Shown: positions 8,924 to 55,130 of the stretch, piece by piece | How the letters are laid out: every line of letters starts with the position of its first letter | Numbering within the stretch: position 1 is the stretch's first letter | From: Halomicrobium zhouii | GTDB lineage: Archaea; Halobacteriota; Halobacteria; Halobacteriales; Haloarculaceae | DNA: 64,000 bases | Reading direction: 5' to 3' | Assembly (NCBI RefSeq): GCF_900114435.1 | Contig: NZ_FOZK01000002.1 | Location: 1,178,001-1,242,000 of the forward strand | The notes under the pieces: model-generated | Database searches by the model: none | What the model saw: only the letters and a program-made list of their open reading frames with translations | Told to the model about the DNA's origin: nothing | Program-made: the position numbers and the translations under genes

Positions 8924-8998
8924 AGCGGGATGGGATAGCCAGGAGATTCCGGCGGGCTCATAACCCGTAGATCGGTGGTTCAAATCCACCTCCCGCTA
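8924..8998 (+). tRNA. Initiator tRNA-Met (CAU)
   Basis: A complete cloverleaf with no intron. The acceptor arms are AGCGGGA and TCCCGCT, the anticodon stem is CGGG/CCCG with loop CTCATAA, and the T-arm is GGTGG-TTCAAAT-CCACC. CCA is not encoded, and the discriminator is A at 8998. The A1-U72 end pair and three consecutive G-C pairs in the anticodon stem are the marks of archaeal and eukaryotic initiators, so this is tRNAi and not the elongator. The 3' end is duplicated downstream (see repeats). Confidence 0.95.
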
Positions 8999-9041
8999 TA
9001 TTCTGTCGCGAACATATTCGTGAGCGACTGATATAGCACGT

Positions 9042-9108
9042 GGTGATTTGAACTCTGGAAGACGAGCGTCAGCGAGTCTTCCTCCGGTTCAAATCCACCT
9101 CCCGCTAT
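9042..9108 (+). repeat. T-arm hairpin unit A with exact copy of the tRNAi 3' end
   Basis: ATTTGAAC (9046-9053) pairs perfectly with GTTCAAAT (9087-9094), and GGAAGAC (9057-9063) pairs with GTCTTCC (9076-9082). The right part, 9086-9108, is an exact 23-base copy of 8977-8999, the T-arm and acceptor 3' strand of the upstream tRNAi plus one base beyond it. Such copies are typical of attachment sites left by tRNA-targeting integrases, but no integrase is present. Confidence 0.75.
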
Positions 9109-9111
9109 TCT

Positions 9112-9225
9112 CGAAGCGACCAATGTGAACGAGGAGCGGAGTCGTTCGAAAGGCGCTCCGCGCCTTTCGTGATGACGAGAGAGCTTCGCTCTCTCGGATC
9201 ACGACGAGTGAACCAGGTCGCTTCG
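9112..9225. repeat. Nested palindrome with two perfect triloop hairpins
   Basis: CGAAGCGACC (9112-9121) pairs perfectly with GGTCGCTTCG (9216-9225). Inside lie two perfect hairpins. One, 9147-9169, has a 10-bp stem and a TCC loop; the other, 9176-9196, has a 9-bp stem and a TTC loop. The second is itself flanked by GTGAT/ATCAC. On the minus strand the loops read GGA and GAA closed by C-G. Confidence 0.75.
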
Positions 9226-42704: not shown

Positions 42705-43727
42705 ATGGGGTCACTGCTGACCGGCCGCCAGGAACGAGCGGCCTGGGTCGTCGTCGGCCTGACGATCGCGGGCTTCGTCGGATTCGTCCTGTACGCCTTC
42801 TTCGGCGCCCTCGTCGTCGGGCTGTTCCTCTACTACGCGATGCGGCCCGTCCACCGCCGCCTCGAGGACCGGTTCGACCACCCCGACGTCGCGGCGACGG
42901 CGACGGTGTTGCTCGTGGGCGTTCCGGTCCTCCTCGTCGTCGGATACGCGGCAGTGGTGGGCGTCCGGCAGTTCGACCAGTTCCTCGCCGCTGCGAACCT
43001 CCAGCAACTCCGTGTCGCGGTCGAACCGTACGTGAGCTCGCTGACCGCGGCGGACGGCGGCGTCTTCGGGCTCCTCCGGAACAACGTCTCGCGCGTCACG
43101 GAACTCACGACTGCCCTGGTCAACTGGGCCCTTCGCCTGTTCGTCATCGTCACCGTTGCCTTCTACCTGCTCCGCGACGACAGGAAGATCGCCGGCTGGT
43201 TCCGGGCGACGTTCGCCGACCACGAGACAGCCGTCCGGTTCGTGGAACACGTCGACGACCACCTGACCACGATATACACCGGCAACCTCGTCACCATCGG
43301 GGCGACGGGACTGATCGCCATAACGGTGTTCTACGGCCTCGACCTGCTCGCCCCGGCCGGCACCGGCGTCGCCTTCCCGGTCCTGCTCGGTCTCCTGGTC
43401 GGCGTCGCCACTATCGTCCCCGCTGTGGGGATCAAGGCCGTCTACTTCCCCTACACCGCCTTCCTCGTCTGGCGCAGCCAGACGACGGCGACGACCCCGC
43501 TGTGGTTTCCGGTCACGTTCTTCCTCGTCGCGGCCGTCGCCCTCGACTGGTTCCCCGACTTCATCGTCCGCTCGTACCTCTCGAAGGGCGAACTGAACAT
43601 GGGCCTCGTGCTGTTGACGTACGTCCTCGGCGCTGTCGCGTTCGGTTGGTATGGCGTGTTCTTCGGGCCGGTCGTCCTCGTCTTCTTCACCACGTTCGCG
43701 CGCGAGATACTCCCCGAACTGACCTGA
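42705..43727 (+). CDS. AI-2E family permease
   Basis: A protein of 340 aa from the ATG at 42705 (MGSLLTGRQERAAWVVVGLT), with about eight membrane segments. The family has the pattern seen here: paired N-terminal helices, a soluble region (VEPYVSSLTAADGGVFGLLR), then TIYTGNLVTIGATGLIAITV and a last block with FGWYGVFFGPVVLVFF. Members export autoinducer-2-like compounds or other small solutes, or Na+ in halophile relatives; the substrate is not known. The longer upstream reading overlaps the AKR promoter and is rejected. Confidence 0.9.
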   Translation: MGSLLTGRQERAAWVVVGLTIAGFVGFVLYAFFGALVVGLFLYYAMRPVHRRLEDRFDHPDVAATATVLLVGVPVLLVVGYAAVVGVRQFDQFLAAANLQQLRVAVEPYVSSLTAADGGVFGLLRNNVSRVTELTTALVNWALRLFVIVTVAFYLLRDDRKIAGWFRATFADHETAVRFVEHVDDHLTTIYTGNLVTIGATGLIAITVFYGLDLLAPAGTGVAFPVLLGLLVGVATIVPAVGIKAVYFPYTAFLVWRSQTTATTPLWFPVTFFLVAAVALDWFPDFIVRSYLSKGELNMGLVLLTYVLGAVAFGWYGVFFGPVVLVFFTTFAREILPELT

Positions 43728-43808
43728 GGGGTCCGATGACGCCCGGAACTCACCTGGGCCCGATAAAAAGTAGAGTCGACGCCACGCCGCTTCGTCCCGG
43801 TCCGGCGC

Positions 43809-44462
43809 TCAGGACCCGTTCGTCCCGTTCGTCCCGTTCGTTCCGTTCGTTCCGTTCGTCCCGGTTCCGGTCGGCGATCCGGGCGTCTCGGTCCCGCCGC
43901 CGGTCTGCCCGTCACCGTCAGTCTGCCACCAGTCCTCGGTCTCGAGGATCTGGTCCTCTTCGTCCTCGCCGACCGGACTGACGTTCACCGTGACGAGCCG
44001 TTCGTTGTCGCCGAACGGCGTCCACTCGCGGTTCATCTCGAACAGCTGTGGCTGGTTCTGGTCGTCGTCCGCGTCGGTCACGAACCCGAGATCGTCGTCG
44101 TACTCGCCGACCTCCGCGTCGTGGGCGACGAACAGCGGGACGACCTCGTCGGTGTTGAGCCACCGGATCATCCGCGTGTTGTACTCGGAGAACCAGCTGT
44201 CCGTCACGTCGCCGTAGTTCGGCGTCCACTCGACGACGCCGGAGACGAACGTGAACCGGGCGTTGGGGTGGAAGTTGTCGACGAACACGAGCCCCTTCCA
44301 GTTGTCGTCCAGGTCGCCGAAGTCGTCGTCGCCACCGTCCTGTGCGCTCGCGGCGCCGGAGGCGGCGGCGAGGCCGGCCGTCGCGACCGCGCTTTTCTTG
44401 AGGAACGATCGGCGCGTCTCGTCGCCGACGATACTGTCGACTAGTGACTCGTTCTCTGTCAT
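43809..44462 (-). CDS. Tat-exported protein with an NGT glycosylation tail
   Basis: A protein of 217 aa from the ATG at 44462. It has a twin-arginine signal (TRRSFLKKSAVATAGLAAAS) followed by an Ala-rich cut region. The mature part has no family I recognise; it has aromatic-rich segments such as DNWKGLVFVDNFHPNARFTF. The tail is Gly/Thr-rich and ends in five overlapping sequons (N203, N206, N209, N212, N215; NGT four times, then NGS) encoded by a 9-bp tandem repeat. A perfect GGGACCT/AGGTCCC hairpin lies just upstream of the start. Confidence 0.85.
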   Translation of the reverse strand: MTENESLVDSIVGDETRRSFLKKSAVATAGLAAASGAASAQDGGDDDFGDLDDNWKGLVFVDNFHPNARFTFVSGVVEWTPNYGDVTDSWFSEYNTRMIRWLNTDEVVPLFVAHDAEVGEYDDDLGFVTDADDDQNQPQLFEMNREWTPFGDNERLVTVNVSPVGEDEEDQILETEDWWQTDGDGQTGGGTETPGSPTGTGTNGTNGTNGTNGTNGS

Positions 44463-44471
44463 AGTATCCCT

Positions 44472-44498
44472 CTCGGGACCTGTAGATAGGTCCCTGAG
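44472..44498 (-). promoter_or_regulatory. Inverted repeat in the leader of the Tat protein gene
   Basis: On the minus strand CTC..GGACCT and AGGTCC..GAG pair around a six-base loop, ending ten bases before the ATG at 44462. The GGGA that could bind the ribosome (GAGAGGGATACT) follows directly. It could be an operator or a translation-controlling hairpin. Confidence 0.5.
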
Positions 44499-44815
44499 AC
44501 TGGAAAAGGACCGAGACCGTTCGTCCGTCGCGGCTTCGCTAGCTGGAGCGTAGGCGCTCCTCGCGGCCGTTACCCGATCGTTATCTCGTCCTGTGTTCCG
44601 TCGCCTCACGCGCTAGGACTCCCGCTCCACTGATAGCGCGGCGTTATCGCTGGCCAGTTTTCTCCGAACTTGTGGCCAATCGCCAGCCCGACAGCAAACC
44701 CCCTGCCGCGACGAGCCGTTCGGTAGCTCGGCTCGAATTCGATGACGAACGTAACTGCAAACGCTCGCTTCGTTCGGCTATCGAGCCGACGGTAACTACA
44801 AAAGCTCCCAACGGT

Positions 44816-45181
44816 CGTCTATCGAGCCGACGAGAGTGACTCGTCCTTTCAGTCCTCGTCCTCCAATTCGAAAAGGCTCGCTTCGCTTGCTTTTCGAGAC
44901 TCCGCCAGAGCTCCGCTCTGACGGGCCTGCGCTCACTGCGTTCGCGCAGACACCGGAAGACGTGCTCGCTACGCTGTCGTCCGAGAGAGCGGAGCTCTCT
45001 CGTGATGACGAAAGGTGCGTTGCACCTTTCGAACCACGCGCGACTTCCGAGCCGCGGAAAGCTCCTCAGACTCGTTTCACTCGTCTTCGTCAAAAATCGA
45101 AAACCTCACTGCGTTCGGTTTTCGAGACACCGATAGACTCGCTACCGCTCGTCTATCGAGCCGACGAGAGTGACTCGTCCT
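44816..45181. repeat. 32-bp direct repeat pair flanking a palindrome array
   Basis: The 32 bases at 44816-44847 recur exactly at 45150-45181, 334 bases apart. They start CGTCTATCGAGCCGACGAGA and contain the short inverted repeat GACGAGAGTGACTCGTC. The second copy ends just before the dnaK stop codon. A 13-base part also occurs near 44778. Confidence 0.8.
44868..45158. repeat. Array of seven palindromes downstream of dnaK
   Basis: 44868-44897: A-tract stem, GC, TC/TT, GC, TTC loop. 44906-44920: 6 bp, TCC loop, with CCG/CGG outside. 44928-44948: TGCGC, TC/TC, AC/GT, TGC loop. 44982-45002: perfect 9 bp with a GGA loop. 45009-45031: perfect 10 bp with a GTT loop. 45097-45125: 9-bp stem, TC/TC, AC/GT, TGC loop. 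45131-45158: 8-bp stem, TC/TC, GC, TACC loop. In dnaK mRNA most of these would present GNA loops and tandem G-A pairs. Confidence 0.8.
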
Positions 45182-45185
45182 CGCT

Positions 45186-47102
45186 TCACTCGTCCTCGTC
45201 ACTCTCGTCGACGTCTTCGAAGTCGGCGTCCACGTACTCCTCGCCCTGGCCGGCAGCCCCACCGGCGCCTGCCGCGCCGCCGGGTCCGGCGCCGCCCATG
45301 CCGCCCATGCCGCCGGCACCGGCCGCCCCGCCAGCAGCGCCCGCGGCGCCTTCGGCGGCCTGCTCCTGGTACATCTGCTTGCCGATCTCCTGGAGCTGTT
45401 CGGTTAGGTTCTCGGTGACTTCCTCGTAGTCCTCCGTGTCGGCGTCCTCGTCCTCGAGGGTCTCCTGGACCTCGTCGATGGCGTCCTCGATGTCGGCGAC
45501 GAGGTCGTCGTCGACGTTCTCCTCGTTCTCCTCGATGAGGGTCTCGGCGCGGCGGATGGAGGCCTCGGCCTCGTTGCGGGCCTCGATGCGCTCGCGGCGT
45601 TCCTCGTCCTCTTCGGCGTGCTGCTCGGCCTCCTCCTGCATCTCCTCGATCTGTTCGTCCGAGAGGCCGGCGCCGCCCTCGATGGTGATCTCCTCGGAGT
45701 TCCCCGAGCCCTTGTCCTCGGCGGAGACGTTGACGATGCCGTTCTCGTCGATGTTGAACGACACCTCGATCTGCGGGGTGCCGGCGGGGGCCGGCGGGAT
45801 ACCGCTCAGCGCGAACTCGCCGAGCAGTTCGTTCTCCTCGGCGATCTCTCGTTCGCCCTGGAAGACGCGGATCTGGACCTGCGTCTGGTTCGCGGCGGCG
45901 GTGGTGAATATCTTCGACTCCTCGGTCGGGATGGTGGTGTTCTTCTCGATGAGTCGCTCGAAGAGGCCGCCCTTGACCTCGACGCCGAGCGAGAGTGGGG
46001 TGACGTCGAGCAGGACGATGTCGTCGACGTCGCCGGAGAGGACGCCGCCCTGGATGGCCGCACCCAGCGCGACGGCCTCGTCGGGGTTGACGTTCTTCTT
46101 GGGCTCCTGACCGGTCAGGTCCTCGACCTGGTCCTGGACCTGGGGCATCCGCGTCGAGCCGCCGACCAGGATCACTTCGTCGATGTCGCCCTTGTCGTAG
46201 CCGGCGTCTTCGAGGGCCTGCTCCGTCGGGCCGACGGTGCGCTCCGTGAGGTCCTCGGTGATGGACTCGAACGTGGCGCGCGTGACCTTGGTCTCCAGGT
46301 CGAGCGGGCCGTCGTCCGTCGTCGCGATGAACGGGAGGTTGACGCGGGTCTCCTTGCGCGAGGAGAGTTCGATCTTCGCCTCCTCGGCGGCGTCCTTCAG
46401 GCGCTGGAGGGCCTGCCGGTCGTCGCGGAGGTCGATGCCGTGTTCCTCCTCGAACTCGTCGGCGAGGTAGTCGATGAGGGCCTCGTCCCAGTCGTCGCCA
46501 CCGAGGTCGTTGTCCCCGTTGGTCGCGACGACCTCGTAGACGCCGCCGCCCAGGTCGAGGATGGAGACGTCGAAGGTACCCCCACCGAGGTCGTACACGA
46601 GGACGGTCTGGTCGGAGTCGTCGTCGAGGCCGTAGGCCATCGCGGCCGCGGTCGGCTCGTTGACGATGCGCTCGACCTCGAAGCCGGCGATCTCGCCGGC
46701 GTCCTTCGTGGCCTGGCGCTGGCGGTCGTTGAAGTACGCCGGCACCGTGATCACGGCCTTTTCGACGTCGTCGCCGAGGTACTCCTCGGCGTCGTGTTTG
46801 ATCTTCTGGAGGATCATCGCCGAGACCTGCTCGGGCGTGTACTCCTCGCCCTCCAGTTCGACCGAGTAGTCGTCCTCGCCCATGTGGCGCTTGATGGACT
46901 GGATCGTCTGGTCGGGGTTCTTGACTGCCTGGTTCTTCGCGGGCTTGCCGACGAGGCGCTCCCCGTCGTCGAACGCGACGACGGACGCGGTCGTGCGGTC
47001 ACCCTCGCTGTTGACGATAATCTCGGGGTCGCCCCCCTCCATGACCGCGAACGCGCTGTTCGTGGTCCCGAGGTCGATTCCGAGAATCTTGTTGCTCGCC
47101 AT
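45186..47102 (-). CDS. dnaK: Chaperone DnaK (Hsp70)
   Basis: A protein of 638 aa, full length. It has the ATPase domain start [20 protein letters not shown], the phosphate loop [17 protein letters not shown] and the adenosine motif [14 protein letters not shown]. The substrate-binding domain carries [12 protein letters not shown] and [15 protein letters not shown]. The C-terminal lid ends in a Gly/Ala-rich tail and a DESDEDE end. It refolds proteins with DnaJ and GrpE. The TATA box (CTTTTAA on the minus strand, 47131-47137) is about 30 bases before the ATG, so the transcript is almost leaderless. The 3' side carries the palindrome array. Confidence 0.97.
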
Positions 47103-47130
47103 CTTGTCTGCCTATATCCAGTTGTGCCGG

Positions 47131-47137
47131 TTAAAAG
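47131..47137 (-). promoter_or_regulatory. TATA box of dnaK
   Basis: CTTTTAA on the minus strand, with a predicted transcript start near 47108, about six bases before the ATG at 47102. The same T-rich, leaderless pattern is seen for grpE (CTTTTATCC around 50024-50032). Confidence 0.6.
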
Positions 47138-47255
47138 TTGCTAGACGCGACGAACGCGAACGAGCCGGAGGGGGTCGCCTCCGTGCGGTTTGGCGGTTCT
47201 CTGACCTGTGTGACCGGTGGGTATATACAGCCCCGCAAACCAACCGTTCTCGAGT

Positions 47256-48008
47256 TCAGGCGGGGGGCTCGAACCGGGCGACGACCGGCCAGTGATCGGA
47301 GGGCGATCGCCAGTTGGCCGCGCGGTCCGTGAGGACGGCGTGCGTCGTCGCCGACAGCGACCTGCTGGCGAAGACGTAGTCGATTCGCTTTGCCTTCTCG
47401 CGGTCGTAGCCGTGGTACGTCTCGTAGGGGCCGTACGGTCGCTCGACGTGCTCGCGAACGTCGTCGAGACCGTCCGCGAGTATCTCGTAGGCCCGAGAGC
47501 CCGGCCGGCAGTTGCAATCGCCGGTGAGGATCACTGGCCCGTCGTGGTCGGCGAATCGCTCGCGGAGGATCTTCGCGCTCTCGTTGCGGGCACGCTCACC
47601 GTCGACGTCGAGGTGGACGTTGTAGTGGTCGAGCCGCTGGCCGGTCGATTTCGTCTCGACCGTGACGTGGGTCGCGAGTCGCGGCAGCGTCGCGTCCCAG
47701 GCCGGTCGGCGGTCGGTCGGGTCTGGCGCAAGCCAGAACGTCTCGGTATCGACGATGGTCGTCCGGTCGCGATGGACCCCGATTGGGGTGTGCTCGCCGA
47801 TGTCGCGGTCCTCGCCGAACCACTCGTACTCGGGTAGTAACTCTCGCACGTCGTCGGTTTGGCCGAGCCAGCACTCCTGGAGGCCGACGAGGGTCGGTTC
47901 GTGGTACCTGATCAATCCGGCGACGTCGGCGACCCGGTCCGGCCACTCGACGGCGACGTCTTCCAGCCCCTCGTAGAGGACGTTGAAAGTGAGGGCCGAG
48001 ATGGTCAC
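47256..48008 (-). CDS. Endonuclease/exonuclease/phosphatase (EEP) family protein
   Basis: A protein of 250 aa from the GTG at 48008 (VTISALTFNVLYEGLEDVAV). The EEP fold is visible in order: LTFNVL, the metal-binding Glu in LVGLQECWL, DHYNVHLDVDG, ILTGDCNCRPGS and the terminal SPSDHWPVVARF with catalytic Asp-His. It may act on nucleic acid, phosphoinositides or other phosphodiesters; there is no export signal. The much longer reading upstream runs through the antisense of the RraA gene and is rejected. Confidence 0.88.
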   Translation of the reverse strand: MTISALTFNVLYEGLEDVAVEWPDRVADVAGLIRYHEPTLVGLQECWLGQTDDVRELLPEYEWFGEDRDIGEHTPIGVHRDRTTIVDTETFWLAPDPTDRRPAWDATLPRLATHVTVETKSTGQRLDHYNVHLDVDGERARNESAKILRERFADHDGPVILTGDCNCRPGSRAYEILADGLDDVREHVERPYGPYETYHGYDREKAKRIDYVFASRSLSATTHAVLTDRAANWRSPSDHWPVVARFEPPA

Positions 48009-53426: not shown

Positions 53427-55130
53427 TCAGCCGTCGTTTCTCGGCAGGGTGAACCTGAACGTCGACCCCGCTCCCGGCTCGGAGTCGACCCAGATGTCGC
53501 CGCCGACGGACTCGCACTGCTCGTCCGTCGAACCCGTCCTCGTGCCGCTCGATCGGACGCCATCGGACTCGCCGCGCTCGTCCGTCGAGCCCACGCTCGC
53601 TTCCTTCGCGTCGACGCCGAGTGACTCACTCTGCTCGTCCGTCGAGCCCGGCCTCGCTGCGCTCGTCCGGACGCCGTGGCGCTCGACAATCCGTTCACAC
53701 AGTGCCAGCCCGATGCCAGTCCCAGCGTGGTCGTCGGGCGCGTGGAGGCGCTGGAACACCTCGAAGACGCGCTCGCTGTCCGATCCCGGAATCCCGATCC
53801 CCTCGTCTCGGACAGAGAAGACGTACTCCGCGCCGTCCCGCTCGACGGAGACGTCGATACGGGGCGGTTCGTCGCCGCTGTACTCGATGGCGTTGTCCAG
53901 CAGGTTCTGGAACAGCTGGCGCAACTGGCCCCTGTCCCCCTGGACGCGTGGCAGGTCGTCGACCGTTATCTCGGCGTCACTCTCGTCGATGCGCACCTGC
54001 AGGTCGTCGCAGACGTCGTCGAAGACCGCGTTCAGGTCCACAGGTTCGAACGGGTCGCCCCGGGTGTCGACCCGGGAGTACTGGAGCAACCCGTCGATCA
54101 TGTCGCGCATGCGGTCGGCGCCGTCGGCGGCGTAGTCGATGAACTCCCGCCCGTCGTCGTCGAGTTCGTCGGCGTAGCGCTGCTCGATCAGCTGGAGGTA
54201 ACTCGACACCATCCGCAGCGGTTCCTGGAGGTCGTGCGACGCGGCGTAGGCGAACTGTTCGAGGCGCTCGTTGGACTCCTCCAGGCGGTCGACGAGTTCC
54301 TCGAGGCGCTGCTCGCGGTCGACCCGCCCGGTGACGTCGCGACCGATTCCGGCCAGTACCGTCTCGCCCCAGGGGTCCTCGAGCGTGGTGGCGGCGAACT
54401 CGAAGGGGATCCGCTCGCCGTCACTGGTCCGGAAGTCGAGCTGGACCTCGACGGAACCCGTCTCGAAGGCCGTCTGGACCGCGGCCCGGATAGTGTCCCG
54501 ATCGTCCTCGCCGAAGAAGTCCGTCGCGTGCATCGAGGCGATCTCGTCGGACGAGTAACCGGTCACTTCCCGCAGACTCTCGTTCCAGCGCCTGAGGTTC
54601 CCCGACTCGTCGAGGACGTAGAACACGTCGTCGATGGCGTCCAGCACGTCGTCCGTGTACCGCCGGTGGCGTTCGAGTCGTTCGTTCGCCGTCGCCAGTT
54701 CGTCGACCGTTACCTCGAGTTCGTGGGCCCGTGTTCTGGACTGGCCGTTGTGGATTCCAGCCGCGAGCCCCGCGACGCTCGCGAGCGCGGTCAGAATCAA
54801 CACGCTCCCCAGGCCGTCTACGCTCTCGCCCGGCTGGAGGCTGTAGAATCCGAGGAGGCCGAGCATCAGGACCAGTGCGCCGAGACTCCAGCCGGCGACG
54901 GTCGGTTCGAACTCGTCGCGGATGTCGAAGTGCGGCAACCGGTACCCGGTGTACAGGACGACGAGGCCGGGGCCGGCTATCAACGCGAAGACGATGAACT
55001 CGCCGATAGAGACGGCTTCGCCCGCCGACACGACCGTCCACCAGACCGCCAGCGCGACGTACAGTCCACCGAGGGCGAGGATGGCGCGTCGGCCACCGAC
55101 CAGGGAGAGAACGCGGTACCAGGCGGCCAT
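53427..55130 (-). CDS. Membrane PAS histidine kinase with a repeat insertion in the ATPase domain
   Basis: A protein of 567 aa. Four membrane helices lie at 16-126, then a PAS domain at about 155-270 and a long signalling helix. The HisKA box follows with the phospho-acceptor H299 (AYAASHDLQEPLRMVSSYLQ). The HATPase domain has N413 (NLLDNAIEYSG), DEGIGIPG and GTGIGLALCERIVERHG. The family then normally continues GGDIWVDSEPG. Here 57 extra residues (486-542) intervene as three 19-residue repeats around GSTDEQxES. No response regulator is adjacent. The insertion lies at the edge of the ATP domain and may be tolerated. Confidence 0.92.
   Translation of the reverse strand: MAAWYRVLSLVGGRRAILALGGLYVALAVWWTVVSAGEAVSIGEFIVFALIAGPGLVVLYTGYRLPHFDIRDEFEPTVAGWSLGALVLMLGLLGFYSLQPGESVDGLGSVLILTALASVAGLAAGIHNGQSRTRAHELEVTVDELATANERLERHRRYTDDVLDAIDDVFYVLDESGNLRRWNESLREVTGYSSDEIASMHATDFFGEDDRDTIRAAVQTAFETGSVEVQLDFRTSDGERIPFEFAATTLEDPWGETVLAGIGRDVTGRVDREQRLEELVDRLEESNERLEQFAYAASHDLQEPLRMVSSYLQLIEQRYADELDDDGREFIDYAADGADRMRDMIDGLLQYSRVDTRGDPFEPVDLNAVFDDVCDDLQVRIDESDAEITVDDLPRVQGDRGQLRQLFQNLLDNAIEYSGDEPPRIDVSVERDGAEYVFSVRDEGIGIPGSDSERVFEVFQRLHAPDDHAGTGIGLALCERIVERHGVRTSAARPGSTDEQSESLGVDAKEASVGSTDERGESDGVRSSGTRTGSTDEQCESVGGDIWVDSEPGAGSTFRFTLPRNDG
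53505..53675. repeat. Three 57-bp tandem repeats inside the kinase gene
   Basis: The block GCTCGTCCGTCGARCCC starts at 53519, 53576 and 53633, an exact 57-base period. The first two copies contain CGGAC, TC, GC, three loop bases, GC, TC, GTCCG (53507-53527, 53564-53584). The third has CCGG-C-C, TC, GC, TGC, GC, TC, G-T-CCGG (53648-53670). This is the same stem, TC/TC, 2-bp, triloop plan as the intergenic palindromes. Confidence 0.85.

Follow-up and report, generated by a model that had tools for sequence, protein, structure and literature searches.

In E. coli, the tyrT repeats (rtT RNA) lie behind a tRNA gene and contain the last nucleotides of that gene; to our knowledge, they form one locus and not a hairpin family common to many genes. 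The REPs of bacteria, as presented in the available sections of PMC3733652, are extragenic palindromes of 20–40 bp that occur in high copy and sometimes inside genes; they include GTAG and CGTC families, and some are tagged CGTC or TGTC. The casposons, according to the available portions of PMC4046053 and PMC6563490, insert at the 3′ ends of tRNA genes and of protein genes (EF-2), keep the gene whole, leave direct repeats of 1–27 nt and may insert in tandem, and their inverted repeats may overlap the duplication. CRISPR arrays grow via the duplication of a repeat (PMC4046053, same portions). In haloarchaea, the SMR-A of Haloquadratum walsbyi are described in the accessible part of PMC3119063 as short, gene-free palindromic elements with an unknown mobiliser, which insert within the palindromes of other elements without target duplication. 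No description of hairpins that copy gene ends was found in haloarchaea within the library and terms searched. The available sections of PMC3733652, on REPs, mention no haloarchaea and describe no gene-end copies, and the accessible part of PMC3119063, on SMR-A and PATEs, describes no gene-end copies by hairpin cassettes, partial tRNA duplication appearing there only with prophage integration.

The window (the whole stretch of 64,000 nt analysed here) comes from a genome of 4.25 Mb in six contigs and contains a dnaK gene whose closest named DnaK relative, among the best 80 of 410 loci, is that of Halobacteria archaeon HArc-gm2 (99% identity). Directly 3′ of the dnaK stop codon, on the dnaK sense strand, lies an array of hairpins (Table 1). 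The first-pass annotation had counted seven of them; the array stands, but there are eight in 44868–45181, two of these inside a 60-nt insert. It had also placed exact 32-base direct repeats around the array, and these are indeed present, the exact match being 33 bases (44815–44847 and 45149–45181) within a 52-nt pair with 87% identity, 334 apart. Duplication or insertion had been suggested as the source of the repeats, which still holds, but not in the form of a single 334-bp unit: a search of the genome with a 501-nt query (44740–45240) matched at full length only the query itself, and what recurs elsewhere are pieces, such as a hairpin of about 39 nt at 11 other places (counted from match rows). 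An alignment of the window with the dnaK region of the nearest relative is without a single clean insertion. The array is a pile of separate small elements, and the 33-base repeat would be better read as repeated dnaK-tail material, namely, an arm of the stop-codon hairpin plus the start of hairpin 1.

Table 1. Features of the dnaK 3′ region and of the tRNA-Met cassette in the window.
Feature	Position	Strand	Basis or remark
dnaK	45186..47102	-	stop codon 45186-45188; ORF list; relatives
Stop-codon hairpin	45162..45210	-	inverted repeat, fold, like design in relatives; 13-nt arms 45198-45210 (last DnaK codons) and 45162-45174, stop codon in loop
Hairpin 1, GGCTCG...CGGTGTC type	45126..45162	-	genome matches, fold
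Hairpin 2, strict head	45098..45124	-	motif match, fold
Second dnaK-tail-like stretch with stop codon	45064..45091	-	by eye, aligns with where dnaK truly ends in the nearest relative
Hairpin 3	44949..45053	-	arms 45037-45053 and 44949-44976, split by the 60-nt insert; whole in L011
60-nt double-hairpin insert	44977..45036	-	further genome copies; empty site in L011
Hairpin 4, strict head	44927..44949	-	motif match, fold
Hairpin 5	44902..44924	-	fold
Hairpin 6, variant head	44868..44897	-	fold
Third tail-like stretch	44815..44863	-	carries the second copy of the 33-base repeat (44815-44847)
Further hairpin remnant, strict head	44746..44787	-	motif match
tRNA-Met and hairpin cassette	8924..9107	+	gene 8924-8998; exact 22-nt end copy 9086-9107

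The head of these hairpins, GARCGNAGYGA, consists of a GNA loop closed by C-G, one further pair and two tandem G-A pairs, and matches nine times in the window versus 1.54 expected in shuffles. Three strict heads lie in the array (at 44765, 44933 and 45106, all on the minus strand), and its remaining hairpins have plain loops or variant heads. These matches, together with the predicted fold of the dnaK-sense RNA of 44760–45240 (−225.7 kcal/mol, z −5.88, with none of 100 shuffles as low), bear out the earlier proposal of a chain of GNA-capped, G-A-containing hairpins in the dnaK sense. The roles that the first-pass annotation had suggested for this chain, as a terminator, a barrier to 3′ exonucleases or a thermometer, are hypothetical. 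The antisense RNA gives a z of −3.30, with one of 100 shuffles as low, and the same region folded as DNA gives −4.34 for the dnaK sense and −3.39 for the other strand. An Rfam scan of 43500–47500 returned no family over threshold and three sub-threshold matches only.

The 60-nt element that splits hairpin 3 has about 17 further copies in the genome (counted by place), in which the ends and the centre are constant and the stems vary. In L011, a relative, hairpin 3 is whole: the flanks abut there with no base lost or duplicated and with one substitution. Further copies inside palindromes were read by eye, and the centre motif of the element also occurs just past the tRNA-Met cassette, at 9167. 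Compared by description with the accessible part of PMC3119063, the element resembles SMR-A in splitting a palindrome without target duplication, in one case (the window versus L011); it differs from them in its length, 60 nt as opposed to about 110 bp, and in its target, a head-type hairpin here and IS605-type elements and PATEs for SMR-A.

Over the whole genome, the longer pattern CGARCGNAGYGAG (strict head) has 288 matches, versus 38 for the reversed pattern. It is present in all 292 of the 292 Halobacteria genomes searched, usually well above the reversed control, and at or below it in a few, e.g., G099, G129, G236, G248 and G256. Head places were compared at 153 distinct sites, drawn from 60 stretches and also from the window; pairing of the flanks extends outwards over as many as nine positions and exceeds both swapped and shifted controls. 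At least five of the first six stem pairs are formed in 87 of the 153, and these 87 have 54 different 6-nt stems, while the inner pair of the head is A-T in 65 places, G-C in 80 and mixed in 8. With 54 stems, and an A-T or G-C inner pair in 145 of 153 places, it is therefore one head that sits on many stems, and the hairpin structure is under constraint. The 104 heads in the 60 stretches are mostly intergenic (94), with 8 in genes in sense and 2 in genes in antisense; around ordinary genes they have no sense bias, the gene before the head being in sense in 47 cases and in antisense in 46.

A short palindrome, high copy number (288 versus 38), a mostly extragenic location (94/104) and stems that pair are all features of REPs. 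As for the unpaired GTAG or CGTC tag at one end of a REP, the dnaK-type hairpins end in CGGTGTC or CGGCGTC and may be similar in this; the tRNA cassettes described below do not end so, judging from individual cases. However, REP dimers are mostly head to head, according to the available sections of PMC3733652, whereas 39 of the 51 multi-copy clusters here have a single orientation.

Certain heads inside genes belong to hairpins that read as in-frame peptides. The one in L107 is absent from both aligned orthologues, in the congeners L175 and L177. In the window, the minus strand at 53427–55130 carries a gene that by eye resembles a histidine kinase, and in-frame head-bearing hairpins (around 53653) occupy the place where its G-box region would be expected. 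Long head-to-tail arrays of hairpins of about 39 nt, of the GGCTCG...CGGCGTC type, alternate with other short hairpins in L189 (G281:C17:170900-172100), L109 and L190. A different type, GCGAACGGG-head-CCCGTGAGC, whose stems each have more than one tandem G-A step, forms arrays upstream of genes in L103, L113 and L142. Replication polarity, in the form of long one-strand runs of heads, was rejected, the strands being mixed along the genome.

The dnaK loci of other haloarchaea were compared using the best 80 of 410, of which 78 include the stop codon and extend at least 260 nt beyond it. Within 400 nt behind the stop codon, these 78 loci have 31 strict heads in sense versus 2 in antisense, and the rest of the same loci has 29 versus 37 by strand in 1.41 Mb; head density is 1.06 per kb behind dnaK and 0.12 per kb in other intergenic DNA. 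The 31 sense heads fall in 18 of the 78 loci, 60 being without a strict sense head over that distance. A stop-codon hairpin with exact arms of at least 11 nt is found in 14 of the 78, compared with 2 of 1232 other genes of these loci and with 38 of 1543 swapped tail pairs as a control, and the 14 hairpins have 13 different arm sequences. Within the genus, six of seven genomes have an array behind dnaK, with differing contents, and one (L167) has none; in another congener, L166, the stop-codon hairpin occurs in five tandem copies. L162 and L164 are probably records identical to L009 and L013. A direct test for copies of the dnaK tail does not discriminate, own tails reaching 20/24 and swapped tails 21/24, because the acidic tail is repetitive and of low complexity; dnaK thus joins the pattern described below through the hairpins behind it, the hairpin around its stop codon and the strand bias, not through a proven tail copy.

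Gene-end copies are clear behind tRNA genes, first in L204 and L205. For all 53 tRNA matches of the genome, the last 22 nt were searched for in the 600 nt downstream and, as a control, upstream: a copy of at least 20/22 lies downstream of 21 of the 53 genes, at 75–280 nt, and upstream of none, where the best is 18. The copy spans the T-arm to the end of the tRNA (23–26 nt) and matches its own tRNA at 20–22 of 22 positions, compared with a mean of 13.8 when swapped. From gene to copy, the cassette consists of two hairpins with an inverted T-arm copy between them. In the eight cassettes folded (of 21), this inverted copy pairs with the downstream one into a single long stem, which has a bulge in C3:137743. 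The inverted copies match their own tRNA at 14.4 positions and swapped ones at 12.3, with overlapping distributions. In the 400 nt downstream of the tRNA genes there are 39 heads in sense and 3 in antisense (behind 24 of the 53 genes), and upstream 9 and 1. Inner sequence of at least 16 nt is exactly common to 24 of 210 cassette pairs and to none in the upstream controls; such shared inner parts, combined with outer copies that match locally, are as expected from insertion with target duplication.

The tRNA cassettes are widespread. Of the 292 genomes searched, 59 contain GATTTGAAGTAGAC, a 14-mer from one cassette type, and these represent 35 of 77 genera; its reversed form occurs in none. Thirty of its loci were fetched from the class (one from the own genome), 26 of which lie behind a tRNA gene on the same strand; proximity to tRNA is partly built in, because the motif contains the T-loop complement, but the tail copy is not, and it is found at 19/22 or better in 22 of the 26 and upstream in none. 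In the 80 named dnaK loci (the best of 410), ARAGORN found 10 tRNA genes, a small sample, one of which has a tail copy. As with the E. coli tyrT repeats, the repeats behind a tRNA gene include its end.

Protein genes show the same arrangement less often. A copy of the last 24 nt, at a threshold of at least 19, was searched for in 230 genes classed by a sense head within 300 nt: it occurs in 4 of the 28 with a sense head versus none of the 202 others, i.e., 0/23 with antisense heads only and 0/179 with no head. In L101 (ornithine carbamoyltransferase-like, named by eye) and L123, the gene end, including the stop codon, recurs past hairpins. Four protein genes, in L090, L101, L123 and L145, are followed by a similar T-rich cassette and then by a copy of the last codons and the stop.

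Candidates for a mobilising enzyme among known systems were examined in the genome. The flanks of its Y1 transposase genes (three loci, L185–L187, 4 matches) have no head, and IS200/IS605 was rejected as the mobiliser; the association of REPs with a RAYT/Y1 transposase gene is thus lacking at these three loci. The gene 3′ end as a direct repeat around the insert is a casposon-like trait at the level of sequence. However, casposons carry cas1 and polB (PMC4046053 and PMC6563490, available portions), whereas the cassettes here are gene-free and of 75–280 nt; Cas1 (PF01867) has no match in the own genome (G000), though it does in 3 of 7 genomes of the genus, and a casposon enzyme was rejected. 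A cassette search gave no match in 50,697 phage records, and the 72,556 plasmid records yielded a single partial one, in Natrinema thermotolerans CP031304, which covers 60% of the query at 82%; with no viral contig either, an origin in phages or plasmids was rejected.

What, then, accounts for the array behind dnaK? The reading considered reasonably probable is that non-autonomous palindromic elements insert at gene ends, leaving the end duplicated, and that the dnaK 3′ region is a hot spot for such insertions. A rather unlikely alternative is that the array is a putative RNA device under selection, which ends transcription, protects the mRNA 3′ end or tunes the end of translation; its parts could have arrived by insertion and been retained because they are needed by the RNA. 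The 31-to-2 sense bias in the 78 loci may leave room for such a role, as may the better folding of the sense RNA (z −5.88 versus −3.30) and the stop-codon hairpin arms, which vary together across many genera. In a Haloferax volcanii reporter, 59% of transcripts were ended by a hairpin taken from a coding region (PMC7237163, available sections), and a termination role at dnaK is conceivable by analogy. Nevertheless, one of the seven genomes of the genus does without the array, 60 of the 78 loci lack a strict sense head, the contents differ between close relatives, and the same design is found behind tRNA genes, where a like bias (39 to 3) suggests insertion geometry and nothing special to dnaK.

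Two further explanations dispense with small mobile elements. Local replication errors (slippage, or template switching at hairpins) could have made the inverted and direct gene-end copies in place, which would fit the tandem units (e.g., L166 and L123) and the adjoining of inverted and direct copies, and correction of this kind could keep the stop-codon hairpin perfect. Template switching could thus explain the inverted copies and the tandem units but not the inner sequence common to unrelated tRNA loci (24/210 pairs, none in controls); nor does it sit well with the presence of one cassette 14-mer in 35 of 77 genera, the variety of stems under a single head, or the clean empty site of the 60-nt element, so that in-place errors are an improbable sole cause. 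Alternatively, the tRNA cassettes would be the decayed traces of plasmids or viruses that once integrated through attachment sites duplicating the end of the tRNA, the dnaK array being unrelated repeat clutter. tRNA 3′ ends are classic attachment sites (PMC6563490, available portions), and a copy from the T-arm to the end, of 23–26 nt, is of the right kind; this idea is nonetheless very doubtful in view of the mere 75–280 nt between gene and copy, which are gene-free and alike across many genera and tRNAs, the outcome of the phage, plasmid and viral-contig searches, and the end copies of protein genes (4/28).

The proposed insertion of palindromic elements at gene ends builds on what was observed: the structures, their strand bias and spread, and the copies of gene ends found at tRNA genes and at some protein genes. 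That the elements move is suggested by the shared inner sequence, the locally fitting tail copies, the empty site in L011 and the in-gene hairpin absent from congener orthologues. The region behind dnaK would be filled by several kinds of short, gene-free palindromic haloarchaeal elements. The main kind would be a hairpin cassette inserted at the 3′ end of a gene, in the sense orientation of that gene. By leaving a duplicate of the gene end on its far side, it would keep the gene (the T-arm and acceptor of a tRNA, or the last codons and stop) whole; repeated events would give the order gene, cassette, gene-end copy, cassette, gene-end copy. The inverted gene-end copy held by the cassette would pair with the downstream copy in the tRNA case or with the gene's own tail in the case of dnaK, the stop codon being in the loop. 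The second kind, the 60-nt double hairpin, would insert into the heads or loops of such hairpins. The gene-end duplications would be the work of a putative integrase-like enzyme, and dnaK is presumably part of the same process as the tRNA and protein genes. Counting against this reading are the even strand distribution of heads around ordinary genes (47 to 46), the 60 of 78 dnaK loci free of a strict sense head, the dnaK tail test, the alignment with the nearest relative, and the results for the Y1 flanks and Cas1.

A bolder and more tentative proposal, doubtful at present, is that CRISPR-like arrays are built at ordinary gene ends in haloarchaea by an uncharacterised integration system. The gene 3′ end would be the repeat duplicated at each event and the hairpin cassettes the inserts; the system would act in sense orientation on tRNA genes and on protein genes, dnaK among them, would be found in many genera and would do without Cas1. 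Should tiny gene-free hairpins indeed insert at gene ends and restore the end at every event, they would be mobile elements of a kind that annotation misses, and an integrase still to be named would be implied. They would alter tRNA and chaperone genes in their 3′ regions, possibly including the last residues of DnaK. Since there are haloarchaea amenable to laboratory work, both the enzyme and any effects on RNA would be open to a direct search.
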